From positions 1 through 52,179 of the forward strand of contig CAMCRC010000010.1 of NCBI GenBank assembly GCA_945877175.1: DNA of 52,179 nt. Direction: 5' to 3'. The position numbers and the translations under genes were made by a program. The DNA is from Klebsiella pneumoniae (GTDB taxonomy: Bacteria > Pseudomonadota > Gammaproteobacteria > Pseudomonadales > Pseudohongiellaceae). Shown piece after piece: positions 16,910-43,208 of the stretch. A model generated the notes under the pieces. It did not search any database, had not been told where the DNA came from, and worked only from the letters and a program-made list of their open reading frames with translations. The first letter of the stretch is position 1. The number at the start of each line of letters is the position of its first letter.

Positions 16910-17428
16910 TCAAAGCGTTGTACCAAGCGCAAAACGCTGACCATGGCTCCAGACCACCCAGGCACTGACGCCATTCACCGTATCCTCCTGCGCCAGATCT
17001 GACAGCTGATAGAAAACCGCACGGGTAAGTCGTGCGTGCAGGCCTTCCCGCACTTGCAGAAGCGGATGCGGCCCGCCTTCCCTTTCCTCCACCCATAAAG
17101 GATGCCGGGCATTCGCTGTGACATGCTCACCCGTGTTGAGTTCAAATGTGAAAGCAGCCTCCGAGCCATCGCCCGTCACCTGCAGCAGAACCGCCACAAA
17201 TGGACAATCGTCGACCTGGATCAACATTTTTTCCACAGGGGTCACGAGATAGAACTGACCGTCCGCTTCCCGTTGCAGGATGGAGGCGAACAGGCGCACA
17301 AGTGCGGGACGCAGAATCGGACGACCTTCGTGAAGCCATACGCCGTCAGCGGTGATGCGAATGTCTATCGCGCCGCAATACGGTGGATTCCGCAGGGATT
17401 CAGAAAGAAAGGGCGCCGTGTCAATCAT
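16910..17428 (-). CDS. DUF1285 family protein
   Basis: A 172-residue soluble protein matching the DUF1285 pattern: an early DIRITADGVWLHEGRPI segment, then RLFASILQREADGQFYLVTPVEK, and a late LTRAVFYQLSDLA. Members are widespread in proteobacteria and their function is not established. It starts with ATG 6 bases after the stop of the upstream lipoprotein gene, so the two are probably co-transcribed. Its end nearly touches the convergent small lipoprotein gene with no visible terminator. Confidence 0.8.
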   Translation of the reverse strand: MIDTAPFLSESLRNPPYCGAIDIRITADGVWLHEGRPILRPALVRLFASILQREADGQFYLVTPVEKMLIQVDDCPFVAVLLQVTGDGSEAAFTFELNTGEHVTANARHPLWVEEREGGPHPLLQVREGLHARLTRAVFYQLSDLAQEDTVNGVSAWVVWSHGQRFALGTTL

Positions 17429-17434
17429 CGACCC

Positions 17435-18109
17435 TTACGGTACCAGACTATCCACGTACTGACCAAGCGCGGCGACCAGCAGTCTGTCCGGGGTTTCTTC
17501 GTACAGACCCAGGATTCCGGCCCGCGTTTCGATGGATACCACATCGACTATTCTCCCCGTCGTCGTATCCAGGACGGTGAGCTGGATGCGGGCCCGATCA
17601 AGTCCGAAGGCATCCTGCACCTCCTCGCCTGTGCGATAGCGCAGGGTGTCCGCAATTTCCGACCAGGTACCGACAGTGTCTTCCCACAGCAGCACTCGCG
17701 GATAGATCACGAAGTCGATGCGGTTCAGCGTCGCAGATTGTCGCGCATCGAAAAGAGATTCCGAGCGCTCGGCACGCAGCACTCTTGGAAACAGCCTCCG
17801 CACCTCTCCCGCCAGGATGATCGAGAGGCTGTCATCTGGCGCCGGCTGGAGAGTGGGCAGGTCAGACGCCGCTGTGGGGCGCAGAAAGGGGTATTGTTCG
17901 AGTCCACTCAGAGCAACGTAGAAACTGACATCCTGAGACAGCACCCAGTGTGCGCTGCGCTCCACCTTGTGGTCGTCCAGAATACCGGCGTCGGAAGTCA
18001 GTGCCAGGCTTTCGTTATAAACCTGCTGGAGTTCGCCGCGCAATGTCTGCACATTGCTGCAGGCAGTTGTGGCAAGCAAAAGGACGATGCCGGTCATGGC
18101 GCGGATCAT
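17435..18109 (-). CDS. putative DUF4823-like lipoprotein
   Basis: About 224 residues with an N-terminal signal (MIRAMTGIVLLLATTACSN) and a likely lipidated Cys at 17. The Thr at -3 makes the lipobox less typical. The middle segment IDFVIYPRVLLWEDTVGTW, then RARIQLTVLDTTTGRIVDV, resembles DUF4823 lipoproteins of pseudomonads as I remember them. I chose the ATG at 18109 over a TTG three codons upstream. Function is unknown; it probably sits in the periplasm or outer membrane and is co-transcribed with the DUF1285 gene. Confidence 0.65.
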   Translation of the reverse strand: MIRAMTGIVLLLATTACSNVQTLRGELQQVYNESLALTSDAGILDDHKVERSAHWVLSQDVSFYVALSGLEQYPFLRPTAASDLPTLQPAPDDSLSIILAGEVRRLFPRVLRAERSESLFDARQSATLNRIDFVIYPRVLLWEDTVGTWSEIADTLRYRTGEEVQDAFGLDRARIQLTVLDTTTGRIVDVVSIETRAGILGLYEETPDRLLVAALGQYVDSLVP

Positions 18110-18208
18110 GGTAAGCAAGCCTCAATCAGGGAACTCAGGCGGCAAAGATCGGCCGTTGCCAGCACTTTTTGCCTTGATTCTTCATAGCAAGCACATTGCT
18201 TGCCAACC

Positions 18209-18502
18209 CTACATTTCCCGGACGCGGGAACACCGGCGACAACGATAGACATGATCCGCGCCTGTCAGCACCATGATCTGAGGAGGCCAGGTACATTTGC
18301 ACAGCAAGTATCCAAGTTTCTGCGCCAGCTCGATCTCCTGCAGACGCTCCTGCAGTGTGACTGCCTGCGGCGCCGTAGCAAGCTCCGGGAATGGCGGCTC
18401 CTGCACTTTGGGGACGAGTTTCACGGGAGCAGACGTTGTGATCGGCGCGGAGGACTCTGCGTCCGTTGTATCGAGCAGCGCTTCCAACTCCGTCAGATTC
18501 AT
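18209..18502 (-). CDS. small protein with zinc-ribbon-like C terminus
   Basis: About 97 residues. The first part is acidic and Pro/Ala-rich, then comes a helical stretch (ERLQEIELAQKLGYLL), and the end carries CKC and, about 20 residues later, CRRC, which could hold a zinc ion. The ATG at 18502 overlaps the stop of the upstream BY-kinase-like gene by 4 nt (ATGA), so it looks translationally coupled. An ATG five codons further up is possible. I recognise no family. The coupling suggests it partners the ATPase. Confidence 0.6.
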   Translation of the reverse strand: MNLTELEALLDTTDAESSAPITTSAPVKLVPKVQEPPFPELATAPQAVTLQERLQEIELAQKLGYLLCKCTWPPQIMVLTGADHVYRCRRCSRVREM

Positions 18503-20121
18503 GGCGCCTTCGTCCACAACGGCAAGGGTGTGCTATCGAATTGCCGGGTTCGATTCAGAACCACATGAACGGGCGGCATGTCCGCCACGTCCAGCTTGCG
18601 CAGTTCCGCTCGGGCCTGTTCAACCCTTGTGCTTCCTGCTGCCACGACGAACACGATGTCACTGCACAATTTCCCGACAAGCAGTGTATCGCTGACATCA
18701 CCGAGGGCAGGCACATCAAGAATCACAGTGTCATAACGGCGTTGCAGCATGTCCAGAATGCGTCGAAAGCGTTTGCCTGCCAACAATTCCTGCGGATTTG
18801 GAGGCAGCACACCCGAAGGAATCACATCGATTCCCTTGCTCTTGAGCGTGTGTGCGCAATCGCGCAATTGCGCGGCGCCCGCAACGAGATGAGACAAACC
18901 TGCGGCGCGAGCGGGCACTCCGAGAAATTCGCGGCTAGACCGCATGTCTGCGTTGATCAGCAAGACTCGCTCCGTGCGGCCCATTGCCAGCGCAAGGCTG
19001 GCCGCGATGGTGGACTTTCCCTCGCCGTGCACGCTGGACGTCGTCAGAATTACGCGTCCTTTGGGAAACTGCTCAAGGGGGTCTGGCTCCGGCCGGCGCA
19101 TTTGCAGCCGAATGCGCAAGGCTGCCAGAGCCTGTGCGTAGGGACGATCTTCCAGGAACTCGGGAATATCAATCGCGGGGGACAGTGGCAAGCTGGCGGC
19201 ACACGACCGGGCCAAGCTACGGGCAATGTCCGAAGGAAAATCCAGACTGTCGCGCCATTGGAACTGCGCTGCCAGCGCGAGCGCAGGCACGGCGACGCTA
19301 CCGAGGTAGCCAAGCAGTACCCACCACCCCAGAGTGGTTTTCAGGGGCTCAACTGGCAATGTAGCGGGATCCATAACACGGGCACTGATCATTTGCCCAA
19401 GTGTCGCGTCGTAACTGCGCACTACCTGGCTGACCAGCGCCGACTCAAGGACAGGCCCAAGAACGCGTTGTCCGGCCGACGTCAATCCAGTCAACGCTGC
19501 GCGCGCTGGTGGCTCTGTCAGCAATGGCGGGATCAGATCATTCACAGGGGAGACAGACAAGGCCGACACCTGCGTCTCAGCGTCGCCGACATCGATCATG
19601 TTGTACTCAGGAATCTGCGTGACACTGTCCAGCTTGGCGATCAGCAATCCCGCCGCGCGCCGCACTTCCTGGATCTGTGCATTGACGGTGTAGTCAACAT
19701 AGGCCTGAGCTACGGCGCTGGCCCCGGTGCGGGCAGCCTCTGCGTCTGCAGCCCGGTAATGCAAGGCCAGCAGGAACGACTGCGGAACAATCTCCACACG
19801 AAGCCCGTCTCGCAAATCGCCGGCGACGGTTGCCGACTGCAAGATGTTCCTCTGGGTTTCCATGAGCATCGGCAGACTGCCCGTGACGCGACTTTCCTCA
19901 CTGGCCGATGCAAACACCGGAGCCTGCACTTCCACCAGAGCTCTGGATTCAAACTGCGGTTCGCGAAGAAACCCGAGCAAGGCAATGACCAGAGCAACTG
20001 GCAATCCAGCCAGCAGGAGATGGCGAGTATGGACTCTCAGCGGCCACCACCACTGCGGCGTCTGGCTGCCATCAGAGCGTGAATGCGCAGAAGTGTCCTG
20101 CAATTCATCATTGTTTGTCAC
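18499..20121 (-). CDS. polysaccharide co-polymerase/BY-kinase-like ATPase lacking a tyrosine tail
   Basis: A 540-residue inner-membrane protein laid out like a Wzc-type bacterial tyrosine kinase: helix 1 (about 34-52), a short periplasmic Wzz-like domain, a Pro-containing approach to helix 2 (about 265-285), and a cytoplasmic P-loop domain. Walker A is SSVHGEGKST (362-371), Walker A' is LLINADMR (387-394) and Walker B is TVILDVP (465-471). The A' motif has Asn390 where kinases usually have the first Asp. No tyrosine follows residue 463, so the usual autophosphorylated cluster is absent. The start is GTG. No polysaccharide genes are nearby. It may be a chain-length or secretion regulator rather than an active kinase. 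Confidence 0.75.
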   Translation of the reverse strand: MTNNDELQDTSAHSRSDGSQTPQWWWPLRVHTRHLLLAGLPVALVIALLGFLREPQFESRALVEVQAPVFASASEESRVTGSLPMLMETQRNILQSATVAGDLRDGLRVEIVPQSFLLALHYRAADAEAARTGASAVAQAYVDYTVNAQIQEVRRAAGLLIAKLDSVTQIPEYNMIDVGDAETQVSALSVSPVNDLIPPLLTEPPARAALTGLTSAGQRVLGPVLESALVSQVVRSYDATLGQMISARVMDPATLPVEPLKTTLGWWVLLGYLGSVAVPALALAAQFQWRDSLDFPSDIARSLARSCAASLPLSPAIDIPEFLEDRPYAQALAALRIRLQMRRPEPDPLEQFPKGRVILTTSSVHGEGKSTIAASLALAMGRTERVLLINADMRSSREFLGVPARAAGLSHLVAGAAQLRDCAHTLKSKGIDVIPSGVLPPNPQELLAGKRFRRILDMLQRRYDTVILDVPALGDVSDTLLVGKLCSDIVFVVAAGSTRVEQARAELRKLDVADMPPVHVVLNRTRQFDSTPLPLWTKAP

Positions 20122-20258: not shown

Positions 20259-21365
20259 TTGCAAGACTCAGATCAGGGGCTTTTTCGCTCACTTTTGCTC
20301 AATAATACTCCATTAATGGATGTCAGAGCCCCCATGGAATTCGTGCGGGGTGCATTTCCATGCGCCGAAAATCTACCCTTGCTGCAGGATTCAGAACGTC
20401 AGCGTGTCGGCACGTGCTACAAGCAGGAAGGACAGGACGCCGCCATCGCCCTTGGGCACAGACTGGTCAACGGGCGCTTGAAGCAGGCAAGGATCGACGC
20501 CTGGCTGGCATGGATCGACTCACACCCGGGCGCATGGCTTTACTGTTTTCGTGGAGGGCTGCGCTCTGCCATCACTCAGCAGTGGCTGGAAGAGGCCGGA
20601 GCCGCATGTCCCCGCGTGCCGGGTGGCTACAAGGCGCTGCGGCAATTCCTTGTGGAGACCATTGAACAGACCAGCAGCAAACGCCAGTTCCTGGTGATCG
20701 CCGGCCCTACCGGATCTGCCAAAACCCATCTGCTGCACCGACTGCCGAATGGGGTGGACCTCGAGGGGCTTGCCAGACATCGCGGCTCCGCGTTTGGTGC
20801 CATGATTGCAAACCAGCCCAGCCAGATAGATTTCGAAAATGCACTGGCAATCGACTTCCTCCGCCAGGAACAATTGCCCTGGGAACGCATCTTTGTGGAA
20901 GACGAAAGTCAGGCGATTGGCTCGCTGTCTGTGCCATTTGCGCTCTACGGCGTGATGAAACAGGCCCCGATTGCGCTCATAAGGGAAACCCTGGAAAAAC
21001 GGGCGGACACTATTCTGAACGACTACATCCGCAGCAATCTTGCCGATTTCCAGAAGGCCGATCCCGCGCAGTCATTCACCTTGTTTTCGAAGTATCTGCA
21101 GGACAGTCTCGACCGCATTCAGCGGCGGCTCGGCGGCGACCGCCATGCGCTTCTGACAAATATGATGCGCAGTGCTCTGGAGGTACAAGCCAGGACTGGA
21201 GATACCGAAGCGCATCGCGACTGGATCAGCCACCTGCTGCAGGAGTACTACGACCCTATGTACCGCTATCAACTCTCGAAGCGACTGGATCGCGTGATCT
21301 TTCAGGGCAATGGCGAAGAGTTCATAGCGTGGGCAGCTGGCCTTCAGGACTCCGCGACCGCGTAA
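20259..21365 (+). CDS. mnmH: tRNA 2-selenouridine/geranyl-2-thiouridine synthase
   Basis: MnmH (SelU, YbbB) converts 2-thiouridine at the wobble position of some tRNAs to 2-selenouridine. 368 residues, normal length. The N-terminal rhodanese domain has PLMDVRAPMEF and the active-site loop YCFRGGLRS (Cys about 96). The C-terminal P-loop domain has GPTGSAKT in place of the usual GxTGSGKT, then PNGVDLEGLARHRGSAFG and EEYYDPMYRYQL. I kept the TTG start because GGGAG lies 6 bases upstream and the N terminus matches E. coli; an ATG 19 codons in would cut into the domain. Its 3' end overlaps the convergent hpt by 22 bases. No selD is in the window. Confidence 0.93.
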   Translation: MQDSDQGLFRSLLLNNTPLMDVRAPMEFVRGAFPCAENLPLLQDSERQRVGTCYKQEGQDAAIALGHRLVNGRLKQARIDAWLAWIDSHPGAWLYCFRGGLRSAITQQWLEEAGAACPRVPGGYKALRQFLVETIEQTSSKRQFLVIAGPTGSAKTHLLHRLPNGVDLEGLARHRGSAFGAMIANQPSQIDFENALAIDFLRQEQLPWERIFVEDESQAIGSLSVPFALYGVMKQAPIALIRETLEKRADTILNDYIRSNLADFQKADPAQSFTLFSKYLQDSLDRIQRRLGGDRHALLTNMMRSALEVQARTGDTEAHRDWISHLLQEYYDPMYRYQLSKRLDRVIFQGNGEEFIAWAAGLQDSATA

Positions 21366-21892
21366 ATGCCCGGGGCATTGCGCAGATAACCCTTGTAGTC
21401 CATGCCAAAGCCGAACAAGTAGCGATCGGGGGCGTCCATACCGGTAATCTCGGCACGCTTCAGTTCTGGATGCCGGCGCTCATGATTCTTGTCCACCAGT
21501 ACCGCAGTGAACACCCGCGCAGCGCCGTTGGCCAGACAATGGGCCCTGATCCCGACGAGCGTGTCGCCCTCGTCAAGAATGTCATCCACCAAGACGACTA
21601 CCCTCCCAGACAGCTCCAAGGCGGGAAAGACTTTCCATTGCAGTTCAGCCCCCGTGAGCTTCCCGCGATAGCGTGTTGCATGCAGATAGTCGACCTGCAG
21701 GGGAAAATGCAGCCGCGGCAGCAACATTCCTGTCAACACAAGTCCACCGTTCATGACACACATCACGATGGGATTCCGGCCTGACACTTCACTCGTGAGT
21801 TGTTCAGCCATGGTGTCCAGAATGCCATTCAGAGCGTCCGCATCAGCCAGGCAATCGGCTTCCTCCATGACCTTGCCAATCTCGTCGTTCAT
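21344..21892 (-). CDS. hpt: hypoxanthine-guanine phosphoribosyltransferase
   Basis: Purine salvage enzyme joining hypoxanthine or guanine to PRPP. 182 residues with the PRPP-binding loop VVVLVDDILDEGDTL, an early MCVMNGGLVLTGML, VDKNHERR, and a C-terminal PDRYLFGFGMDYKGYLRNAPGIY. The ATG overlaps the nagZ stop by 4 nt, so nagZ-hpt form a coupled pair. The 3' end overlaps the convergent mnmH by 22 bases, with no room for a terminator. Confidence 0.92.
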   Translation of the reverse strand: MNDEIGKVMEEADCLADADALNGILDTMAEQLTSEVSGRNPIVMCVMNGGLVLTGMLLPRLHFPLQVDYLHATRYRGKLTGAELQWKVFPALELSGRVVVLVDDILDEGDTLVGIRAHCLANGAARVFTAVLVDKNHERRHPELKRAEITGMDAPDRYLFGFGMDYKGYLRNAPGIYAVAES

Positions 21893-22929
21893 GCCTTTGA
21901 CCCCAGCGCCTGAAGCATGTCACTGGCCATCAGCCAGCGCTCGGAATTCATCAGATTTTCGCGATCAAAATCCTGCTGACGACGCATGCGGGACAAGCGC
22001 GGGTTGGCCGGTTCGCTGCGTTGTTCCAGATGCTGCAATGCCGCCAGCGCCATCGTGCGGTCATTGCAGACCAGCACCATGTCGCATCCAGCCTGAATAG
22101 CGGCGTCAACCCGAGCTTCGATGTTGCCGGCAGCAGCCGCACCGGCCATGGCCAGATCGTCGCTGAAAATTACGCCATCAAAACCCAGTTCCCCGCGCAA
22201 GACTGTCTGCAACCAGAACGGAGAAAAACCCGCACATCGCGAATCCGCCTGGGAATAAATGACATGGGCAGGCATGACCGCATCCAGTTGCCCCAAACAC
22301 GCGGAAAATGGCTGCAGATCCTGATCGCGAATGGTTTGGAGCGAGCGCGTATCAATTGGAATGTCGGTATGGGAGTCAGCGCCGACGTTTCCATGTCCCG
22401 GAAAATGCTTGCCCGTGGTGGCCATTCCGGCAGCGCGCATGCCGTGCATGAAGGCATTCGCCAGTGCAGCAACCTCTCCTGGTGTACTGCCGAAAGCGCG
22501 ATTGCCAATGACTGCACTGATGCCTGCATCGAGGTCGAGCACCGGGGCAAAGCTGAAGTCGAACCCAGCAGAAAGCATCTCCGCGGCCATCAACCAGCCA
22601 CATTCTCTGGCGCAGAGCACCGCCCTTGCCGGTTCCTCGCGCAACAGCCCGGCAAACACACCCATCGGCGGCAGTCTCGTGTAAGCCTCGCGTAGTCGCT
22701 GCACGCGCCCGCCCTCTTGGTCTACCGCAATCAAAAGGGCCGGATTGCAGGTACGGATGGCATCGTTGAGTTCGCGAACCTGCTTTGGATTCGCGTAGTT
22801 GCGGGCAAACAGGATGACACCTCCTACTTGCGGATGAGCCAGCAGCTCCTGTTCCTTAGCGGTCAGAGCCAACCCTTCGAGGTCGAGCATCAACACACCG
22901 GGCGCTTTGAGTTCGGAAGAGTGATTCAT
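21889..22929 (-). CDS. nagZ: beta-N-acetylhexosaminidase NagZ
   Basis: Cytoplasmic glycoside hydrolase family 3 enzyme that removes N-acetylglucosamine from anhydromuropeptides during peptidoglycan recycling. 346 residues from ATG at 22929. It shows LIAVDQEGGRVQRL (67-80), the KHFPGHGNVGADSHTDIP loop (174-191) carrying the catalytic Asp/His pair, and the nucleophile motif FSDDLAM (255-261). The reading frame continues upstream for 38 codons, but that part lacks family features and runs into the lexA promoter. In pseudomonads nagZ activity also affects ampC induction. Confidence 0.94.
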   Translation of the reverse strand: MNHSSELKAPGVLMLDLEGLALTAKEQELLAHPQVGGVILFARNYANPKQVRELNDAIRTCNPALLIAVDQEGGRVQRLREAYTRLPPMGVFAGLLREEPARAVLCARECGWLMAAEMLSAGFDFSFAPVLDLDAGISAVIGNRAFGSTPGEVAALANAFMHGMRAAGMATTGKHFPGHGNVGADSHTDIPIDTRSLQTIRDQDLQPFSACLGQLDAVMPAHVIYSQADSRCAGFSPFWLQTVLRGELGFDGVIFSDDLAMAGAAAAGNIEARVDAAIQAGCDMVLVCNDRTMALAALQHLEQRSEPANPRLSRMRRQQDFDRENLMNSERWLMASDMLQALGSKA

Positions 22930-23036
22930 TGGATGCTGCGGCCTCCGCGGCCGGAACTGCGCATGCGGCAGAAGTGGACAACCCGGAATGTCGGGCTGCG
23001 GGATTATCACAAATTCGCCCAGACCGGGCAAAGCCC

Positions 23037-23064
23037 TTGTCATTCAAGGATGACTGTATATAAT
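23037..23064 (+). promoter_or_regulatory. lexA promoter
   Basis: A -35 box TTGTCA (23037-23042), a 16-base spacer and a perfect -10 TATAAT (23059-23064). The -10 box lies inside the LexA operator, so repressor binding would block the polymerase directly. The distance to the lexA ATG at 23099 is about 28 bases from the expected start site. Confidence 0.8.
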
Positions 23065-31599: not shown

Positions 31600-32559
31600 A
31601 TGAGTCATCACGCCATTATCACAGAACTCAGGGACTGGCTTTCGCAGCAGATCATCGGGCAGGAGCGTCTGGTGGACCGCTTGCTGATAGCACTTCTGGC
31701 CGATGGCCACTTGCTGGTAGAAGGCGCTCCCGGTCTCGCTAAAACCAAGGCAATCAAAGACTTGTCAAAGGCTGTGGAAGGTGACTTTCACCGCATTCAG
31801 TTCACGCCCGACCTGTTGCCAAGTGACATCACAGGCACGGAAATTTTCCGACCCGAAGATGGTTCTTTCCGCTTCCAGCCCGGCCCCATTTTTCACAACC
31901 TCGTACTGGCAGATGAAATCAACCGCGCCCCTGCCAAAGTGCAGTCCGCCCTGCTGGAGGCCATGGCCGAACATCAGGTCAGCGTCGGTCGTCAGTCTTT
32001 CCAGTTGCCTCCCTTGTTTCTGGTAATGGCGACACAGAACCCGATCGAGCAGGAAGGCACCTACCCCCTGCCGGAAGCACAACTTGACCGTTTCCTGATG
32101 CATGTTTCCATCGGTTATCCGTCTACGGAAGCCGAACGTCGCATATTGCAGCTCGTGCGCAATGAAGCTCAGAACAAGGCGCCCACAGCACCTCGCATCA
32201 TCAGTCAGGAAGATCTGTTTGCTGCACGGCAGGAAATCCTGGCAATGCACATGGCCCCTGCTGTTGAGGAATACATCATTCAACTGATCATGGCGACACG
32301 GCATCCGGAATTGTACGGTGACGACCTGGCAAACTGGCTTGAATATGGCGCCAGCCCACGCGGTACCATTTCTCTGGATCGTTGTGCCAGGGCTCACGCC
32401 TGGATTCTCGGCAAAGACTTCGTCAGCCCGGATGACATACAAGCTGTCTTCTTCGACGTCTTGCGACATCGCATCCTGCTGAGTTTTGAAGCTGAAGCCA
32501 GTGGCGTTACTCCGGACAAGGTGCTGACCACAATCCTTGAACGCGTGCCCGCGGCCTGA
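31600..32559 (+). CDS. MoxR family AAA+ ATPase
   Basis: A 319-residue AAA+ ATPase of the MoxR group, with Walker A GAPGLAKT (42-49), Walker B LVLADEINRAPAKVQSALLEAM, ATQNPIEQEGTYPLPEAQLDRF, and a C-terminal lid with PRGTISLDRCARAHAW. MoxR proteins act as chaperones, working with von Willebrand factor A (VWA) proteins to activate or assemble targets. It is first in a plus-strand operon with DUF58, DUF4381, BatA, BatB and BatD, the arrangement known as the Bat (aerotolerance) operon. The ATG follows an A-rich leader. Confidence 0.93.
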   Translation: MSHHAIITELRDWLSQQIIGQERLVDRLLIALLADGHLLVEGAPGLAKTKAIKDLSKAVEGDFHRIQFTPDLLPSDITGTEIFRPEDGSFRFQPGPIFHNLVLADEINRAPAKVQSALLEAMAEHQVSVGRQSFQLPPLFLVMATQNPIEQEGTYPLPEAQLDRFLMHVSIGYPSTEAERRILQLVRNEAQNKAPTAPRIISQEDLFAARQEILAMHMAPAVEEYIIQLIMATRHPELYGDDLANWLEYGASPRGTISLDRCARAHAWILGKDFVSPDDIQAVFFDVLRHRILLSFEAEASGVTPDKVLTTILERVPAA

Positions 32560-32607
32560 AGATTAGAGTCACGCGACAGCCACCAATAAGAAGGCACTGC
32601 GAGTGCC

Positions 32608-33606
32608 ATGCAACGAGACAGTTGTCCAATGTCCATTTCGACGCAGAGTGATCAACAGCAGGCGCTCTACCAGAGCAAAGGCGCCATCATCAGTCTGCAG
32701 CAGCTGCTGATACAGCGTCACGCTGCCAAGATTGTGGAGTATGTCCCCTACTCGAGGTCCATTGCCGGAATCTCGGGATTGCACATGTCCAAGATGCGCG
32801 GACGCGGGATCGACTTTGAAGAGTTTCGACCCTACCAGGCTGGCGACGACATTCGCACCATCGACTGGCGGGTAACTGCCCGCACCGGCAAGCCGTTTAC
32901 AAAAGTTTTCCGGGAAGAACGTGAGCGTCCGGTTATCATCGCGATAGATCAATCCAGCAGCATGTTCTTTGGGTCACAAGTCGCTTTCAAATCGGTGATA
33001 GCCGCTCAGGCCGCCGCTATATTCTGCTGGATGGCGATAGATAATGGCGACCGCGTCGGCGGCCTGGTGTTTTCAGATTCTGATCAGGCTTTGGTCCGTC
33101 CGAAACGCAGTCGCAGGTCAGCACTGCACCTCTTGAATCAGCTGCAGACGTTCAATGCCCGTCTCGCGGACAAGGAAGCGCGCCTTGCAGCCGCTCAAGA
33201 AGGCCAAACCCATGGCGGGCTGACGCAGGCGCTTGCTGATATCCGACGCATCACCAAGCCCGGCAGCACACTCTATATATTGAGCGACTTCAGCACGCTG
33301 GACGAGACGGCCATTCAATACCTGAACCAGCTTTCCCGGCACAACAATGTTGTCTGCTGCATCATTTATGACGCGTTGGAAGAGAATCTGCCAGTTCCTG
33401 GGTACTACAGCATCACCGATGGCGCGCGCAAAGGCACCTTGAATTCCTACAGCCAGACAGCGCGCAGAGACTATCAGGCACTTTTCAAGACCAGGATGGA
33501 CGCTCTGCAGGCCGATTTCACACGCCTGCAGATTCCCTATCTGAAACTTCGTACCAATCAATTTGTTGTTGAGCAGATCAGACAATGGACAGTGCAAACC
33601 CTCTGA
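32608..33606 (+). CDS. DUF58/VWA-like protein of the Bat operon
   Basis: A 332-residue soluble protein with the DUF58 signature RGRGIDFEEFRPYQAGDDIRTIDW (65-88; short form RPYQAGDDIR) and a VWA-type metal site DQSSS (D114, S116, S118). It probably binds the MoxR ATPase. An alternative ATG is seven codons in (32629). Its 3' end overlaps the DUF4381 gene by 22 nt. A second DUF58 gene is at 41,205-42,200, but that one is membrane-anchored and lacks this metal site. Confidence 0.88.
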   Translation: MQRDSCPMSISTQSDQQQALYQSKGAIISLQQLLIQRHAAKIVEYVPYSRSIAGISGLHMSKMRGRGIDFEEFRPYQAGDDIRTIDWRVTARTGKPFTKVFREERERPVIIAIDQSSSMFFGSQVAFKSVIAAQAAAIFCWMAIDNGDRVGGLVFSDSDQALVRPKRSRRSALHLLNQLQTFNARLADKEARLAAAQEGQTHGGLTQALADIRRITKPGSTLYILSDFSTLDETAIQYLNQLSRHNNVVCCIIYDALEENLPVPGYYSITDGARKGTLNSYSQTARRDYQALFKTRMDALQADFTRLQIPYLKLRTNQFVVEQIRQWTVQTL

Positions 33607-34157
33607 GCCAACTGGCGGATATCCATATGCCGGAGCCCGTCGGGTTCTGGCCACCCGCGCCCGGGTGGTGGATTCTGTTCTTCATTCTGTGTGCAATCCT
33701 GGTCTGGGCATTGCGCCGCTACTACGCCAATTGGAAGCTGCAGCGCGCACGCAGTTTTGCGATCCGCGAGCTCGACAAGTGCCTGACCGCCTTGCGCGAC
33801 CAGTCGCAAGGAAAAGACGCGACCGAAGTCGATATTCTGAAACTGAACTTCGTCAGCGACGTCAACGGCGTTCTGAGACGCGTGGCCATGAAGAACTTCA
33901 GGCACGAAAATTTCGCCAGCCTCGGGGGCGCTGCGTGGATTGTGTTTCTTCGCGATCATGGTGATGCAGCATTGCTGGACGACACACTGGCTTTCACACT
34001 GAGTCAGGGCCGCTTTGCCAAGCAATGGGAAGTTGATGAGCAACGTCTATATCAAATGGCGCACCAATGGATTGGCAGTGTCTATTTGGCTAGAATCAAT
34101 CCGGAGAAGCCCTCCAACAACACGTCCGCTGCGACGCCGGTTTCCGACCATGCTTGA
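33585..34157 (+). CDS. DUF4381 membrane protein
   Basis: A 190-residue protein with a short N-terminal segment (LADIHMPEPVGFWPPAPGWW), one transmembrane helix (about 27-44) and a cytoplasmic helical domain with VDILKLNFVSDVNGVLRRVA. This is the DUF4381 pattern, a regular member of Bat operons with no assigned activity. It overlaps DUF58 by 22 nt and BatA by 8 nt. Confidence 0.85.
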   Translation: MDSANPLSQLADIHMPEPVGFWPPAPGWWILFFILCAILVWALRRYYANWKLQRARSFAIRELDKCLTALRDQSQGKDATEVDILKLNFVSDVNGVLRRVAMKNFRHENFASLGGAAWIVFLRDHGDAALLDDTLAFTLSQGRFAKQWEVDEQRLYQMAHQWIGSVYLARINPEKPSNNTSAATPVSDHA

Positions 34158-35208
34158 GTTGACCTGGCCCTGGGCCCTGCTGGCACTGCCTCTTCCGCTT
34201 CTGGTGTACCGCTTCTTTACGCGCGCGGCACGTCAGGATGCAGCCCTGTTTGTCCCCTTCTACCAACGCCTGTCGCAACTGCAGACCGATTCTGTTCGCT
34301 CTGACGCATACCGCATCCTCAAGCTGATTTGTCTTACACTGATCTGGATCGGACTGGTGCTGGCGGCAACCCGCCCGCAGTGGGTAGGTGAACCGATTGA
34401 ACTGCCTTCGACAGGGCGGGATCTCATGCTCGTCGTGGATATCTCGGGCAGCATGGAGGCACGCGATATGGTGCTCAACAACGCACAGTTGTCGCGCTTC
34501 GAAGTCATGAAGGCTGTGGTCAGTGACTTTGCTGAGCGCCGCGAAGGCGACCGCCTTGGCCTGATTCTGTTCGCGGCCCACGCTTATATCCAGACACCGC
34601 TGACCTTCGACCGCAGTACCGTTGCCAAACTGATTGCAGAACTTGAAATCGGGATGATCGAAGAGTCCGCCACCGCCATCGGAGACGCCATTGGTCTTGG
34701 TGTGAAGCACCTGCGCGAGCGTCCCGCTGACAGTCGGGTAATGGTCATGTTGACAGACGGCGTCAACAACGCTGGTGCTGTGAGCCCTCTGCAGGCTGGC
34801 CAGCTGGCCCAGATCGAGAACATCAAGATCTACACGATCGGCATGGGCGCTGACACCTTGGTACAACGCTCCTTCCAGGGCTCGCGGGCCATCAATCCTT
34901 CCGCCGAACTGGACGAGGAAAACCTCACTCAGATTGCCGAGTCCACTGGCGGGCGCTACTTCCGCGCCCGAGACGTACAAGACCTGATTGACATCTATGC
35001 CGAACTGGACACACTCGAGGCTATAGAACAGGATCAGCAGACTTTTCGTCCGGTCAATGTGTTGTTCTACTGGCCTCTCGGCGCTGCGGTGCTCCTGAGC
35101 TTCCTGCTGGCAATGCTGAGCTTCCCCTGGTCCGTGCTGTCAAGTGGACAGCCCGCTGTTGCCACAGACAAGGACGCTGCGCGTCCAGCCGCATCAGGAG
35201 GTCAGTAA
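34150..35208 (+). CDS. batA: VWA domain membrane protein BatA
   Basis: About 352 residues. Two N-terminal helices (about 6-23 and 57-73) anchor it, then a VWA domain follows with the metal-ion site DISGS (D97, S99, S101) and LTDGVNNAG, and a final helix lies near 310-330. BatA-like proteins are thought to form inner-membrane VWA complexes with BatB. I chose the ATG at 34150 because MLELTWPWALL is the typical start; it overlaps DUF4381 by 8 nt. A longer frame upstream is a shadow of DUF4381. Confidence 0.88.
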   Translation: MLELTWPWALLALPLPLLVYRFFTRAARQDAALFVPFYQRLSQLQTDSVRSDAYRILKLICLTLIWIGLVLAATRPQWVGEPIELPSTGRDLMLVVDISGSMEARDMVLNNAQLSRFEVMKAVVSDFAERREGDRLGLILFAAHAYIQTPLTFDRSTVAKLIAELEIGMIEESATAIGDAIGLGVKHLRERPADSRVMVMLTDGVNNAGAVSPLQAGQLAQIENIKIYTIGMGADTLVQRSFQGSRAINPSAELDEENLTQIAESTGGRYFRARDVQDLIDIYAELDTLEAIEQDQQTFRPVNVLFYWPLGAAVLLSFLLAMLSFPWSVLSSGQPAVATDKDAARPAASGGQ

Positions 35209-37004
35209 TGGCCGAAGCCAGTCAGCTCGCCTTGTTTCTTGCCGAATTTCATTTTCTGCGTCCACTCTGGTTGCTGGCCTTGATTCCTGCCCTGCTTTGC
35301 GTGTTCTTTCTGTGGCGCCTGAATGAAAGCGCCAGTTCCTGGGACAGAGCGATCGACAAGGACCTTTTGCCCTACCTGCTCGACAGCAGCAAAAGTGTGG
35401 CGGAACGGACGCCACTGGTCATTCTGCTGGCACTGTGGACACTCGCAATCCTGGCGCTTGCCGGACCCGTCTGGGAAAAAATTGCACAACCCGTTCAGGC
35501 CCGCCAGGACGCCATGGTCATTGTCTATGATCAGTCACTGTCCATGTACGCCACCGACTACGAACCCAATCGCCAGACGGTCAGCAAGCGCAAGATCATG
35601 GATGTCCTTGACCGCCGGGTTGAGGGTCAGACAGCTCTGATTGTGTATGCCGGAGATGCCCACGCCGTCACACCGCTTACAGAAGATTCCGTCACCATCC
35701 GCTCCCTGGTGCCCTCCATCAATCCCAACATGATGCCGGCCTTTGGCAGCAATACCATCGCTGCCGTGCAAACGGCGAGACAGCTCTTTGCCGATGCGGG
35801 TGCTGCTTCCGGCACTATTTTCCTGGTGACCGATGGCGTAGAGCGTCGCGATCATGCAGAACTGCAACAGATGCTCTCGCAGAGTGGCGTCCGCCTGGTG
35901 ATACTGGGAGTCGGCACCGACGCTGGCGCTACCATTCCTGCGGCTGGCGGTGACTTCCTGCGGGATGCCAACGGACAAATCGTGGTGGCGCGCCTGGACC
36001 GCGCCAGCCTTCAGGATCTGGCCGCTGCCGTTGACGGTCGTTACGCCGACATGGATCTGACTGGCGGGGACCTGGATTATCTGCTGGAAGACGACGGGTT
36101 CCTCGACGAAGACGAGCTGAGTGCCGTGGAAGAAAATTTCGACATCTGGTTCGAAGCAGGACCCTGGTTGCTGGTGCTGATACTGCCATTGGGTGCCATG
36201 GCGTTCCGCCGCGGCTGGCTGCTGACAATCACGCTTCTTCTGGGTACAGCCGGGCTGATCAGTCCTTCCAGTCAGGTCCAGGCGGCCGAGTGGACTGACT
36301 TGTGGAAAACCAAGGACCAGCAAGGTGCAGACGCAATGGCGCAGGAAGATGCCATAGGAGCCGCGGCTCTTTTCCAGTCCCCCGAATGGCGCGGCACGGC
36401 AGCCTATCGTGCAGGTGACTTCGCGGGTGCAGTGCAGGCCTACAGCCTCGATCCCGGCACCATCCCGGACAACCACTACAACCTTGGCAATGCCTACGCA
36501 ATGACGCAGAACTTCGAAGCGGCCGTCTCCGCTTATGATATTGCCATCGCCATGGACCCGGAACACACGGACGCAATCCACAATCGCGAAATAGTTGCGG
36601 CGCTCCTTGAGCAACAGCAGAACGAAGAAGAACAACAGTCTGATGACGACATGACCTCACCGCAGGACCAGACAGAGGAACAGTCCGAAGAACAGCAAGA
36701 AGAAGGCGAGCAGGAAGAACAGGATCAGGAACAGCAGCAGGAACAGCAGGAAGAAGGCGAAGAGCAGGAACAGCAGGAGCAGCAGCAAGGCTCCGAGCAG
36801 GAACAACAGGAAGAACAGACACCTGGCGAGCAGCCCAATCAGAGCAGTGCGGAAACGGAAAGCCAGGAGTCTCTCGAGCAGTGGCTGCGTCGTATCGACG
36901 ACGATCCGGGCGAATTGATGCAGCGCAAGTTCCAGTTCGAATATCGCCGACGACAGCTTGAAAGCCGCACCTCACCACAATCGACGGACGGGCAAATATG
37001 GTAA
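35208..37004 (+). CDS. batB: VWA-TPR protein BatB/BatC type with Glu/Gln-rich tail
   Basis: A 598-residue protein. N-terminal helices (about 18-35 and 69-86) precede a VWA domain with metal site DQSLS (D108, S110, S112). Two more helices (about 315-350) are followed by a TPR-like region (about 395-460) with HYNLGNAYAMTQNFEAAVSAY. A very acidic Glu/Gln-rich stretch (about 467-550) and a basic end complete it. It looks like a BatB-BatC fusion, which is common in gammaproteobacteria. The start is well supported: AGGAGG is 6 bases upstream, and the start overlaps the batA stop by one base (TAATG). Confidence 0.87.
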   Translation: MAEASQLALFLAEFHFLRPLWLLALIPALLCVFFLWRLNESASSWDRAIDKDLLPYLLDSSKSVAERTPLVILLALWTLAILALAGPVWEKIAQPVQARQDAMVIVYDQSLSMYATDYEPNRQTVSKRKIMDVLDRRVEGQTALIVYAGDAHAVTPLTEDSVTIRSLVPSINPNMMPAFGSNTIAAVQTARQLFADAGAASGTIFLVTDGVERRDHAELQQMLSQSGVRLVILGVGTDAGATIPAAGGDFLRDANGQIVVARLDRASLQDLAAAVDGRYADMDLTGGDLDYLLEDDGFLDEDELSAVEENFDIWFEAGPWLLVLILPLGAMAFRRGWLLTITLLLGTAGLISPSSQVQAAEWTDLWKTKDQQGADAMAQEDAIGAAALFQSPEWRGTAAYRAGDFAGAVQAYSLDPGTIPDNHYNLGNAYAMTQNFEAAVSAYDIAIAMDPEHTDAIHNREIVAALLEQQQNEEEQQSDDDMTSPQDQTEEQSEEQQEEGEQEEQDQEQQQEQQEEGEEQEQQEQQQGSEQEQQEEQTPGEQPNQSSAETESQESLEQWLRRIDDDPGELMQRKFQFEYRRRQLESRTSPQSTDGQIW

Positions 37005-38767
37005 CTCTGCGGACTTGCCTGACGGCGGCACTCTTCTGTGTGTTTTCAGTACTGGCCCAGGCGCAACCTGTTACGGCGACAGTCGATCGTACGGAAATCA
37101 TACGAGGTGAAACTGTCATACTGACCATCCGCGTGGAAGGTCAGTCTGGTGGCGTGGAAATGGACCTCGCCCCTCTGGAAGCCGGGTTTCAGGTCATCTC
37201 CACTCGTACCTCCAGTCAGATCAGCGCCGTCAACAACAGCATGCAGTCCAGAATCGATTACCACCTGACGCTGTTTCCCTTGAACGAGGGACCGATCACC
37301 ATTCCGGCCCTGCAGGTAGCAGGCACGACAACAGCTCCCTTGACGATCACTGTGGAGCCCCGCACTTCGTCGGGCCTTGCTGGACAGGAACTGTTCATGG
37401 AAGCGGTGATAAGCAAGGATTCCTTGTTTGTCCAGGAGCAACTGCTTTTCTCGATCCGCCTGTATTACACCATCAGCGGCATTCGCAATCCGATCTTCAC
37501 AGAGCTTGATCTGCCTGACGCAGTAGTGGAACCCATTGGCACGCCCAATCAGTACGAAACTCTCGTGGACGGCATGCGCTATGGCGTCTACGAAAAACAG
37601 TACGCAATCTTCCCGCAGCGCAGCGGCACTCTGGAAATTCCTGACATCATGTTCCGGGGCGAAGTCACTGACAGCTCCAGCAGTTACGTGTTCCGCAATC
37701 TGAACACCCGCACCATCACGTCTTATGCAGAGGGGCATTCCATCACTGTCAGTGAGAAACCGGCAGATTATCCGGCTGAGGCACTCTGGCTGCCAGCCAC
37801 TGAGATAAGCATTCGCGAAACCTGGGACAACGACTTCAGCAATGTTCGTGTCGGTGATTCCGTATACCGCATCATCGAAATTGAAGCGCATGGATTGGAC
37901 GGTGCGGCGTTGCCACCCTTGGAGACGCCAAGCATTACCGGCGTGAATATCTACCCGGAACCAGCTTCCATTGAGCACGCCTTTGTGGAAGGCAATATCG
38001 TGGGCAAGCGTATTGAGTCCACTTCCATGCTCATGACTGCCGACGGCACTGTCGTGGTGCCGGGCATCAATATCCCTTGGTATGACATTGACACCGGCGA
38101 GATCAAGTATGCGACTGTTGAAAACACCGCGATCACAGTAGGATCTGTGCGCTCGGGCAGCACCGGCGAAGCATTGCTGCTTTCCAATGCCGACCTTGAA
38201 GAGCCGACCCGCGAAACCTTTGCTGCCTCAGCCATTCCGCCCGAAGAGCAGATCCTGGTCAGCTCCCCCACTACTCCACTCTGGATTCTAAGTCTGGCGG
38301 CAGCCCTGACAGCATTGGTGTTTGCATTGAGCTTCGTCAAATTCAAGCGCCGTGCACCAGCAGTTGCTCCACGCAAGGAATATCCGGTTGCAGCGCCCAT
38401 GTACCGACGCGGCATCGCCCCTGAGGCAGAAAGCCAGGCCTTCAAGGAATTCATCAACGCCTGCTCTGGCAAGCACCTGCCGGCGCTGCGACTGGCGCTC
38501 ATCGGTTGGGGACGCCAGTACTTTGCGGACGCTGAACTGCATACCCTGGATGCCTTGGCTGTGCGCTCCGGGAACGCCGAAGTCCGCGACATCTGCCTCC
38601 GTCTGCAGCAATCACTCTATGGCCAGGGAAGCACACAAAGCTCCCTGGACAAAGACATCCAGCGCCTGCAGACGCTGATCTCCGAACTGCGCTCAGCACA
38701 CAGGCAACAAATCGCCACCGCCCGCAAGGACCAGGACTACATCCTGCCTCCGCTCTATAAAGCCTGA
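36998..38767 (+). CDS. batD: BatD family periplasmic-facing membrane protein
   Basis: A 589-residue protein with an N-terminal signal sequence ending near AQAQ (about 22), several beta-rich repeats outside the membrane (TVDRTEIIRGETVILTIRV is the family start), one transmembrane helix (about 427-445) and a cytoplasmic helical tail. BatD is the large 'oxygen tolerance' partner of BatA and BatB. The ATG overlaps the upstream gene by 7 nt. The encoded protein appears intact. Confidence 0.87.
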   Translation: MVTLRTCLTAALFCVFSVLAQAQPVTATVDRTEIIRGETVILTIRVEGQSGGVEMDLAPLEAGFQVISTRTSSQISAVNNSMQSRIDYHLTLFPLNEGPITIPALQVAGTTTAPLTITVEPRTSSGLAGQELFMEAVISKDSLFVQEQLLFSIRLYYTISGIRNPIFTELDLPDAVVEPIGTPNQYETLVDGMRYGVYEKQYAIFPQRSGTLEIPDIMFRGEVTDSSSSYVFRNLNTRTITSYAEGHSITVSEKPADYPAEALWLPATEISIRETWDNDFSNVRVGDSVYRIIEIEAHGLDGAALPPLETPSITGVNIYPEPASIEHAFVEGNIVGKRIESTSMLMTADGTVVVPGINIPWYDIDTGEIKYATVENTAITVGSVRSGSTGEALLLSNADLEEPTRETFAASAIPPEEQILVSSPTTPLWILSLAAALTALVFALSFVKFKRRAPAVAPRKEYPVAAPMYRRGIAPEAESQAFKEFINACSGKHLPALRLALIGWGRQYFADAELHTLDALAVRSGNAEVRDICLRLQQSLYGQGSTQSSLDKDIQRLQTLISELRSAHRQQIATARKDQDYILPPLYKA

Positions 38768-38771
38768 CATC

Positions 38772-39131
38772 GTGGGACGACACTCTTCGCTGGTGTATTC
38801 CACGGATGCCGGACGCCTTTGCCCTGAGTGTTCGCGTCCGATCGCGGCCTGTGAGTGCCGCAGCAGAATGCAGGCAGCACGCGCGCAAAGCGACGGTTTT
38901 GTGCGCCTTCGCCGCGAGACCAAAGGCCGCGGGGGCAAGGGTGTCACATTGATTGATGGTTTGCCCCTCACCGAGGAGGCGCTGCAGGCCCTTGCGAGGC
39001 AGCTCAAGAACAAGTGTGGAACCGGAGGCACAGTAAAGAACGGCACAATCGAGATTCAGGGTGATCATCGTGTGCAGCTGCAGCCGCTGCTGGAAGCCCT
39101 GGGCTTCAAAGTCAAACTTGCCGGAGGCTGA
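38772..39131 (+). CDS. yciH: translation initiation factor Sui1/eIF1-like (YciH)
   Basis: A 119-residue protein with an N-terminal Cys cluster CPEC...CEC (C17, C20, C27, C29) and a SUI1 domain containing RRETKGRGGKGVTLIDGL, LKNKCGTGGTVKNGTIEIQGD and HRVQLQPLLEALGFKVK. E. coli YciH influences initiation fidelity. The GTG start at 38772 is 4 bases after batD, giving a homology-consistent N terminus (LVYSTDAGR). It is the last gene of the plus-strand run and ends 8 bases from a convergent gene. Confidence 0.9.
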   Translation: MGRHSSLVYSTDAGRLCPECSRPIAACECRSRMQAARAQSDGFVRLRRETKGRGGKGVTLIDGLPLTEEALQALARQLKNKCGTGGTVKNGTIEIQGDHRVQLQPLLEALGFKVKLAGG

Positions 39132-39139
39132 CCGAGTCC

Positions 39140-41221
39140 TCAGGGCACCAGTCTTGCCCCCGCCAGCAGTCTGCGCAAAGGCGTCATCAAACGTCGGCGC
39201 AATTGTCGGCACGTCAGCCGCAGCCTCCTGAAATCAGCATTGCTGCCGTTCTGAAGTGTCTCCATATTGACCTTGTTCACGTAGGCAAGCTTTAGAAACA
39301 AGTCCGTCACTTCGCTCATCTGCATTGCAATTTCAGGACGCTGCGCTGCAACGCGACTACAGTAGTCCACTGGCCCTTCCCCGCGCTGACGCGGCACTCC
39401 GCTCCTCGCAAGTTCCTTCAGCAAATTCAGATACAGGCGTGTCGCGGGATCATGACGCGTGACTTTTCCATGGCGCAGCAGAAACCAGCCCGCCAACACG
39501 AAAAACATGGCGATGGTCGAAACCAGCGCTATCAATAGCCCCCGCCTCGCGTTGTCGCCGAACCAATTCCCCAACAGTTCCATCTGCATGTTTTCGTCGT
39601 AACTGACAACCCAGCGGTTCCAGGCGTAGTCCAGCCCCTCAAGTCGCAGCCGAACGGTATTGAGCCACTGCGTGTCGCGAAAGCGCATCATCGAAAATCC
39701 TGCATCTTCCATGAAGCCTGGCTGATCCTGAAAGAACGTCTCTACACCCAAAGTGATGCGTTCTGGAGCAACAGCCGCCGTGGGGTCGAAGCGCACCCAG
39801 CCTTCGCCTTCGATCCACACCTCAGCCCAGGCATGGGCGTTGTATTGATACACCAGCGTGTAGTCTTCATAGGGGTTGTATTCACCACCCTGGTAACCCA
39901 CGACGACACGCGCAGGGATTCCCACTTCCCGCATCATGTAGACAAAGCTTCCGGCATAGTGACCGCAGAAACCTTCCCGCGTCGTGAACATGAATTCATC
40001 AATGCTGGAATCACCCAAAGCGGAGGGCGTAAGCGTGTAATAGAAAGGCAGCTCGCGGAAGTGCTGCAGCACTGCCATTGCAAAATCAATGTCTGTGGCA
40101 GCCGCGGCGCGCATCTGCGTGGCCAGGGCCGAAGTGCGCGGATTCAAGTCGCCTTCGGGCATCTGCAAACTGCGAGCCCTTTGGGTGCCCGCCAGTTGCA
40201 GGTCAGTCTGATGCTGCAGGTAGGAATTCACTTGATAGCGATAGCGCTGATTGATGGGCATTTCGGTAATCAAGGAATAATTGCGGTCCTGCACCATGTC
40301 CCTCGCACTGACTTCGGCAAGCTGCAGCGAGTACACCCAGCTTTGCTGGGTCGGCTCCATGATCACATCATAGGAGACGGGCTCGCCAAGAGGCACACCT
40401 CGGAAGTCCGTCGGGAAGCGGGAAATCATCTGATAAGTCTGCAATGTGGAACCCGCACGGCGCCAGGTGCGGCCATCGAAGAAGTCCAGCACCAGACCCC
40501 GCCAGTAAAGCGCTTCGTTGGCTGGCGCGTCACCAGTGAAACTGACTCTGAATGCCAGCTCGGTCGAGCGCCCGAGATTGGTGATGTCACCGGGTGTCAT
40601 TTCGTCCGACACCCCCGTGCTCGTCGAGGAAGACACAGGCAAAGGCATGGACCACAGCGGCGAGACGCGGGGCACCAGCACGAACAGGGCGATGGTCAGG
40701 GGAATACTCTGCAATACGAGACGCACTGCCAGCCGGCCATTGTCCTTGAACGTATTGCGCGCATCGTCGCGATACAGGGAAAGCATGGTGGCAGTAATCA
40801 GAATGAAACAGACGATGGCATGCAACGTGGCCAGAATGGTTTGCGTGTAGATGAAACCCAGCATGGCCAGGACATAACAGAGCGCGATCACGATGAGGAT
40901 GTCGCGTCTGTCGCGCATTTCCAGAAGTTTGAAAACCACGCCGAGAATGAGGAGACAAACCGCGGTGTCCAGCCCCTCTCCCGCCGCACCGTACTGCATT
41001 ACCGTCAGTGGCAGTGCCACCAGGACAATCGAGATCTTCAGCAATTTGCCGGGAAAGCCCAGACGGCCCGCGTAAATCAGCAACCGCCATCCCATGCAGC
41101 TGAACAGCAATACAGTGACCCAGACCGGCAGGCGAACGACGTGCGGGACGATCAGCAACAACAGTGCCGCCAGCAGCCAGAGCAACGAAATTCGGGGTAT
41201 GGCGTCACGCGCTTCGATCAC
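39140..41221 (-). CDS. tgpA: membrane transglutaminase-like protease, TgpA type (DUF3488/DUF4129)
   Basis: About 693 residues: five or six N-terminal helices (DUF3488, up to about 190), a periplasmic transglutaminase-like domain with the Cys-His-Asp triad in EGFCGHYAGS (Cys419), YNAHAWAEVW (His463) and VRFDPTAAV (Asp479), one more helix (about 565-585) and a cytoplasmic tail. TgpA is essential in Pseudomonas aeruginosa. I chose the GTG at 41221 because AGGAGG lies five bases upstream; an ATG at 41242 would add seven residues. It overlaps the DUF58 gene by 17 nt. Confidence 0.88.
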   Translation of the reverse strand: MIEARDAIPRISLLWLLAALLLLIVPHVVRLPVWVTVLLFSCMGWRLLIYAGRLGFPGKLLKISIVLVALPLTVMQYGAAGEGLDTAVCLLILGVVFKLLEMRDRRDILIVIALCYVLAMLGFIYTQTILATLHAIVCFILITATMLSLYRDDARNTFKDNGRLAVRLVLQSIPLTIALFVLVPRVSPLWSMPLPVSSSTSTGVSDEMTPGDITNLGRSTELAFRVSFTGDAPANEALYWRGLVLDFFDGRTWRRAGSTLQTYQMISRFPTDFRGVPLGEPVSYDVIMEPTQQSWVYSLQLAEVSARDMVQDRNYSLITEMPINQRYRYQVNSYLQHQTDLQLAGTQRARSLQMPEGDLNPRTSALATQMRAAAATDIDFAMAVLQHFRELPFYYTLTPSALGDSSIDEFMFTTREGFCGHYAGSFVYMMREVGIPARVVVGYQGGEYNPYEDYTLVYQYNAHAWAEVWIEGEGWVRFDPTAAVAPERITLGVETFFQDQPGFMEDAGFSMMRFRDTQWLNTVRLRLEGLDYAWNRWVVSYDENMQMELLGNWFGDNARRGLLIALVSTIAMFFVLAGWFLLRHGKVTRHDPATRLYLNLLKELARSGVPRQRGEGPVDYCSRVAAQRPEIAMQMSEVTDLFLKLAYVNKVNMETLQNGSNADFRRLRLTCRQLRRRLMTPLRRLLAGARLVP

Positions 41222-42200: not shown

Positions 42201-42207
42201 GGCGGGC

Positions 42208-43125: not shown

Positions 43126-43208
43126 GTTGTCCCCTGCTTGCAATTTTATTTTTGGATCTGCGGGTCAAACCAGGCGGTTTCCCCCTGGGTCGGCGGGGGG
43201 CCGGAGGC

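Follow-up and report, generated by a model that had tools for sequence, protein, structure and literature searches.

A gene for a Wzc-like, probable BY pseudokinase paired with a small cysteine protein gene in one gammaproteobacterial lineage

The gene for a Wzc-like protein, probably a BY pseudokinase, and the gene for a small cysteine protein beside it form a real two-gene unit, present in the window (the whole stretch of 52,179 nucleotides that was analysed) and in related genomes. The large protein is probably a derivative of a Wzc-type co-polymerase kinase that has been reused for another job, given that its kinase tail is gone and that the usual export genes are often not found in the carriers. 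We favour, tentatively and at rather less than even confidence, a lineage-restricted unit in which this PCP-2a-derived BY pseudokinase would serve as a membrane scaffold for the small protein.

Gene pair and insertion site

The ATPase gene occupies 18499..20121 on the minus strand, starts with GTG and encodes 540 amino acids. The small gene lies downstream at 18209..18502, also on the minus strand, with its ATG at 18502 and its stop ending at 18209 (97 aa). An earlier note on this DNA, made from the sequence, had described a 4-nt overlap between the ATPase and a 97-residue protein with CKC and CRRC motifs; both were confirmed, the overlap being an ATGA common to the ATPase stop and the small-gene start (18499..18502, minus) and the cysteines being C68, C70, C88 and C91. 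The ATGA is kept at 12 of the 14 loci found, the window's included, and is absent in G008 and G019; the two genes are probably coupled translationally through it. A scan for promoters and terminators gave results no better than those from shuffled sequences.

Searched with the ATPase at E 1e-10, a set of 57 genomes that includes the window's own gave matches in 27, comprising 14 close orthologues at one site and 13 ordinary BY-kinase homologues. The 14 carriers are the window's genome, 12 of its 13 same-genus relatives and G019, which belongs to another genus. A profile of the small protein finds the same 14 genomes and no others. Since this profile was built from those 14, the matches there arise by construction, and the weight of the co-occurrence lies in the 43 other genomes without the small protein and in the adjacency of all 14 copies to the ATPase or, in two cases, to its broken remnant. 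Lack of conservation of the small gene next to the ATPase had been named beforehand as what would speak against an unrecognised two-gene unit; the small gene is kept there in all 14 carriers, and the proposal is supported.

The chromosomal site is identical in 14/14 carriers, with the gene order, as far as the contigs reach, topA, lexA, nagZ, hpt, selU, ATPase, small gene, DUF4823, DUF1285, etfBA; the exceptions are G019, which has no selU match at the site, and G002, whose contig starts inside selU. In the window, selU/mnmH (tRNA 2-selenouridine synthase; 20259..21365, plus) lies divergently on one side of the insertion site, and on the other side a DUF4823 lipoprotein-like gene (17435..18118, minus) is the conserved downstream neighbour of the pair and is followed by the DUF1285 gene (16910..17428, minus), which marks the site. 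The pair is absent from the sister genera G017 and G018, where selU adjoins DUF1285 with about 300 bp between them, and in G016 it is hpt that adjoins DUF1285. Loss of the pair was considered for G010, the only genus member without it, and set aside: its contig ends just past etfB, so that the absence is uninformative.

A three-gene unit that includes DUF4823 was also considered. All three genes co-occur in the carriers, yet in a survey of 44 other DUF4823 matches, 29 of them with loci, in which about 1.5 kb on each side was checked for the ATPase and the small gene, DUF4823 adjoins DUF1285 without the pair in 20 of the 29 loci, all from elsewhere in the order. The unit therefore consists of two genes, and DUF4823 is probably an older neighbour. 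The same recurrent adjacency links DUF4823 and DUF1285, two uncharacterised families, to each other; a search of open-licence PMC text found no mention of the former. Farther along the window, 31600-43143 holds two MoxR/DUF58-type sets, one on the plus strand (31600-38767: MoxR, DUF58, DUF4381, two VWA proteins and BatD) and one on the minus strand (39140-43143: a TgpA-type transglutaminase, a weak DUF58 match and a second MoxR).

The kinase-like protein

The large protein consists of an N-terminal hydrophobic segment (residues ~34-52), a periplasmic part of about 215 residues, a second hydrophobic segment (~267-285) and a domain of the MinD/BY-kinase fold (~290-525); its hydrophobic peaks begin at about 34 and 267, and a weaker peak at 480 falls within the kinase domain. 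The stretch between the segments in Wzc is about 400 residues long. Of the Wzz-P-loop architecture previously called intact, the two hydrophobic segments and the P-loop domain stand, but the Pfam Wzz model (PF02706) scores 12.8 bits (E 0.15), far below its cut-off of 25.5, and the periplasmic part is short of that of Wzc. In the C-terminal half AAA_31 exceeds its cut-off, TIGR01007 matches with E 8.2e-31 at 107.1 bits, slightly below the cut-off of 108.05, and VpsO matches with E 2.8e-24. Foldseek aligned an AlphaFold2 model of the protein (mean pLDDT 73.7, pTM 0.51, from an alignment of 12 rows) with Wzc along the chain, with E down to 1.7e-27 and a TM of only ~0.4 at large rmsd, while the kinase domain of the model matches CapAB chains at TM 0.83-0.90. 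By fold and by sequence similarity alike, the window ATPase groups with BY-kinases of the Wzc/CapB type.

Its Walker A motif reads GEGKST and its Walker B motif VILDVP. Walker A' is LLINADMR, with NAD replacing DAD, and the last tyrosine is Tyr463, so that both the Asn for the first Asp and the absence of any later Tyr are as the earlier note had them. The ExxRxxR motif, which serves oligomerisation in BY-kinases, is degenerate (QALAALR), a point that the earlier note had missed. With the Walker A Lys and the Walker B Asp in place, the window ATPase may still bind and hydrolyse ATP.

These motifs were followed through the 12 intact orphan orthologues, namely the window copy, ten from same-genus relatives and that of G019, the broken copies of G002 and G004 being excluded. 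Tail tyrosines, counted after the LNR motif, number zero in six, one in five and four in G019; none of the 11 intact ATPases of the genus, the window copy among them, has a Tyr cluster (0-1 tail Tyr). The Walker A Lys is kept in nine; in G001 and G003 it is replaced by Val, and by Arg in G019. At the position of the first A' Asp, seven have Asn, four Asp and one Glu, and the Walker B Asp is kept in 12/12. Strict ExxRxxR occurs in none of the 11 same-genus proteins and only in G019 among the 12, with DxxRxxR in G005. Loss of catalytic motifs is only partial: five of the 12 keep Walker A, Walker B and an acidic A' residue together, and the window copy keeps A and B with A' changed.

As controls we examined 14 of 18 non-orphan BY-kinase matches from the same family and order, those with loci. 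The Walker A Lys is present in all 14, at least four tail Tyr in 12 and strict ExxRxxR in 11; the first A' Asp is kept in 12 and changed in two. The Walker A' Asn is consequently weaker evidence than had been thought, being variable among the orphans and altered in some ordinary homologues too. The claim of a kinase without tyrosine tail holds for the same-genus orphan clade but not for G019, whose copy is near a normal kinase (with intact ExxRxxR) apart from the Arg in Walker A and an Asn in A', nor for the wider family. A branch with support 93/97, slightly below the level that the tool takes as firm, sets the orphans apart in a tree built from 26 kinase domains; some of the non-orphan rows are long-branched. 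For the same-genus clade, the absence of a Tyr cluster makes Wzc-style cluster autophosphorylation unavailable, and the absence of strict ExxRxxR makes ring assembly through that motif doubtful.

The small cysteine protein

The small protein begins with an N-terminal MNLxELxxLL helix, continues in a variable linker with VKLVP and ends in a C-terminal zinc-ribbon-like module, GYLLCKCTWPPQIMVLTG..YRCRRC. The 14 orthologues range from 88 to 198 aa, with the linker variable. All share the four Cys (CxC + CxxC), and invariant among others are M1, N2, L3, E5, L6, L10, G64 to C68, C70, WPPQIMVL (72-79), C88, R90, C91, R93 and R95; the sole invariant Tyr, Tyr65, lies within the cysteine module. The predicted model comprises the N-terminal helix, a disordered stretch, a second helix and a small-strand module (block-mean pLDDT 78-88). 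Foldseek returned insignificant matches only for this model, with no PDB match at E up to 0.001, and the window protein matched no Pfam, NCBIfam or PHROGs family over its cut-off, as was also the case for three orthologues and relatives. That the gene is a chance open reading frame was considered and is ruled out by its 14 orthologues and by dN/dS values mostly below 0.2.

Small proteins encoded in an accessory region of G338, in a Vibrio filamentous phage and on five IMG/VR contigs also carry the cysteine module. The Vibrio phage protein was found with the window small protein as lone query (E 2e-7). Viral contigs gave no match to query A1, and other queries gave one locus and then five, with one contig common to both. 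This small phage and mobile-DNA family (~100-130 aa) carries GYxLCxC[TS]FPP(Q/V)(I/V)ML...C..C, and its members include L064:9661-9984, L065:6606-6941, L066:1142-1432, L068:4905-5225, L069:1103-1405, L070:4809-5222 and L072:4800-5180. No Pfam family matches the L064 member, for which PHROGs gives just a weak match (phrog_12810, E 0.0095), and in the Vibrio phage the module gene comes after a gene annotated as gene-1-like. Otherwise the search with the small protein gave no match among plasmids, only the one Vibrio phage among phage records, only G338 besides the window among 390 order-wide genomes, and no further genome among 398 phylum-wide and 369 class-wide ones, these sets overlapping and each being drawn from a larger group. 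The phage and mobile proteins resemble the window protein in the C-terminal cysteine module; read by eye, they differ in an N-terminal half without the MNLxELxxLL helix and VKLVP linker, and their loci show no recognisable BY-kinase-like gene adjoining.

Selection and broken ATPase copies

Selection was estimated as dN/dS by the Nei-Gojobori method; with several dS values close to or exceeding 1, the lowest ratios are rough. Six pairs of intact ATPase copies gave 0.06-0.17: 0.061 for G001/G003, 0.065 for G007/G012, 0.141 for the window and G006, and 0.157-0.173 among G009, G011 and G013. Seven values for the small gene span 0.034-0.383, six of them below 0.2, and an eighth pair has no synonymous change; the value for the window and G002 (0.38) is based on few changes. 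G001 and G003, which both lack the P-loop Lys and are the single measurable pair of that kind, have a small-gene value of 0.034, and their ATPase ratio indicates purifying selection on the ATPase despite this loss.

In two carriers, G002 and G004, the ATPase is broken and the adjoining small gene is intact (L047:826-1516 and L046:8826-10282). In G002, the nearest relative of the window, about 930 bp of the ATPase is missing and the remains give dN/dS 0.37-0.39; relative to G006, the G004 copy has a stop and lacks about 160 bp, and its C-terminal piece compared with that of G006 gives 0.096. By protein identity, both genomes rank among the window's three nearest relatives. Both are also drafts, and the breaks are possibly assembly errors.

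Polysaccharide context

Among the 49 window ORFs scanned with family models, no polysaccharide synthesis or export family was found, so that the earlier remark on the absence of such genes nearby holds. As envelope-sugar genes, the closest are lpxK with an adjoining ABC exporter (lipid A), which we take to be MsbA, about 15-18 kb off, and nagZ (21889-23043), which acts in peptidoglycan recycling. Homologues with conserved tyrosines inside polysaccharide operons had been proposed as evidence against an orphan kinase; no orthologue of this kind was found, every one lying at the one site beside DUF4823 and the 11 same-genus proteins having no cluster.

Poly_export (Wza), searched in 15 genomes (the window's, 13 same-genus relatives and G019), was detected in six, G001, G003, G005, G007, G013 and G019, and not in the window's. 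Wzy_C (PF04932), at E 0.001, was detected in 35 of 57 genomes and, among the 14 carriers, in G003, G005, G007, G013 and G019, again not in the window's; both searches gave matches in control genomes. Eight of the 14 carriers have neither (G000, G002, G004, G006, G008, G009, G011 and G012, the window's genome among them), at a completeness of 76 to 100%, with G011 and G012 at 99-100% and the window's genome at 90%. Wzy proteins are diverse, so that the absence of PF04932 does not exclude every polymerase. Since these genes were not found in most carriers, the pair is unlikely to serve ordinary export of capsule or EPS by Wza/Wzy, and identity of the large protein as a capsule Wzc was judged unlikely on the same grounds. 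In G005 and G019, Poly_export, Wzy_C and a second BY-kinase match lie together within about 6.5 kb at another locus, and the orphan pair is kept too. Loci of EPS type that encode a Wzy_C protein and a short Poly_export protein, apart from the orphan pair and coexisting with it, were seen at L088 (G005:C24), L089 (G019:C262) and L090 (G013:C25).

Comparison with known systems

PCP-2 kinases are thought to work by phosphorylation-driven assembly cycles within Wzx/Wzy export. The window protein resembles the PCP-2a BY-kinases Wzc, Etk, VpsO and BceF in its two hydrophobic segments around a periplasmic part, in its C-terminal MinD-type BY-kinase fold and in its retained Walker A and B motifs. It differs from them in a periplasmic part of about half the length (as judged against Wzc), in lacking the Tyr cluster, strict ExxRxxR and the first A' Asp, and in lying outside a polysaccharide locus, coupled, it appears, to a small cysteine protein.

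BY pseudokinases, including PCP-fused ones, are already in print. EcpK of M. xanthus and HfsB of C. crescentus are BY pseudokinases with a proposed scaffold role (PMC12004946), having, like the orphans, the BY-kinase fold without the residues for Tyr phosphorylation. Each of these two is a protein of its own that works with a distinct PCP-2 in a Wzx/Wzy pathway, and EcpK is without all Walker motifs (PMC12004946). The window domain, by contrast, is fused to its membrane part, and motif loss in the orphan clade is partial; most orphan carriers, moreover, differ in having no detected Wza and Wzy_C. The Discussion of that paper names SMc01795, VV1_2305 and others as PCP-2 proteins with a BY pseudokinase fused to them; by this description they resemble the window protein in joining membrane part and pseudokinase in one chain, and that section mentions no zinc-ribbon partner for them (PMC12004946). 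What is new here is the coupled cysteine-ribbon partner and the setting without Wza and Wzy_C. Searches of open-licence PMC text turned up neither the pair nor the cysteine module; PPQIM occurred in one paper, unrelated by its title, and no paper joined tyrosine kinase, Wzz, zinc ribbon and operon.

Interpretation

If the large protein is a membrane scaffold, its cytoplasmic domain, with or without nucleotide, would dock the small protein, probably through the latter's N-terminal MNLxELxxLL helix. The near-invariant C-terminal ribbon, a putative zinc-binding element, would be the effector end and would bind a conserved cytoplasmic partner, which the unit might position at the inner membrane; alternatively, the unit might respond to the state of the periplasmic domain. 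Against a scaffold pseudokinase stand the Walker A and B motifs of the window copy, which may still use ATP, the five of 12 orthologues in which A, B and an acidic A' residue persist, the near-normal kinase of G019, and the one tail Tyr that five of the 11 same-genus orthologues keep. Moreover, a broken ATPase with an intact small gene in G002 and G004 would mean that an obligate scaffold is not needed there, unless the breaks are assembly errors.

The large protein could instead still be a polysaccharide co-polymerase: a PCP-2, joined to a BY pseudokinase domain, would control how long the chains of a Wza-independent polymer grow, such as an LPS side chain built by a polymerase that PF04932 does not cover. 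Its scaffold would cycle as proposed for EcpK/EpsV and HfsB/HfsA, with the small protein as regulator. We consider this unlikely, though by no means far-fetched: the fold match to Wzc runs along the chain and such fusions have been named in PMC12004946, but Poly_export and Wzy_C are both undetected in 8/14 carriers, the orphan pair is never in a polysaccharide locus, and G005 and G019 keep it despite a separate Wza/BY-kinase/Wzy_C locus. An unusually active kinase that phosphorylates another protein, perhaps the small protein, rather than its own tail seems improbable. A dedicated substrate would fit translational coupling, and Walker A, Walker B and acidic A' persist together in 5/12 orthologues, with A and B in the window copy; against this, the P-loop Lys is lost in 3/12, the only pair of this kind with a dN/dS value is under purifying selection, and the small protein's only invariant Tyr is inside the cysteine module.

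We give equally little credence to the ATPase being a decaying relic, dispensable at least in the window's sublineage, with the small protein as the working gene. The breaks in G002 and G004 beside intact small genes point that way, as does the contrast between the G002 remains (0.37-0.39) and the intact pairs (0.06-0.17); yet the frame is intact in 12/14 carriers, those six intact pairs have low ratios, the breaks come from draft genomes, and the small gene's own value for the window and G002, from few changes, is likewise 0.38. Least probable of all, and very improbable in our estimation, is a domesticated mobile or anti-phage module, the cysteine part having been acquired from phage or mobile cargo and the pair now protecting against phage. 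The module's occurrence in the Vibrio filamentous phage, the five IMG/VR contigs and the G338 accessory region would suit such an origin, but neither window protein has a PADLOC match at E 0.1 (for the G019 ATPase there is a weak match to mads_8, E 0.017), and a single identical site in 14/14 carriers speaks against it.

Returning to the membrane scaffold that we favour, it is conceivable, though we would not put it higher than a one-in-three kind of chance or slightly better, that in one gammaproteobacterial lineage, mostly without recognisable Wza or Wzy_C, a capsule-export kinase scaffold became a membrane platform that needs no phosphorylation and serves a new zinc-ribbon effector, its ATPase site being lost stepwise although selection still maintains the protein. 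The small cysteine module, also borne by phage, has no match over cut-off to a Pfam or NCBIfam family in the members scanned; it could be given a name and tested in its own right. The orthologue series, which lacks the Tyr cluster, in some members lacks the P-loop Lys, appears from its dN/dS values to be under purifying selection and resides mostly in genomes without detected Wza and Wzy_C, would offer a probe of what the scaffold does alone.
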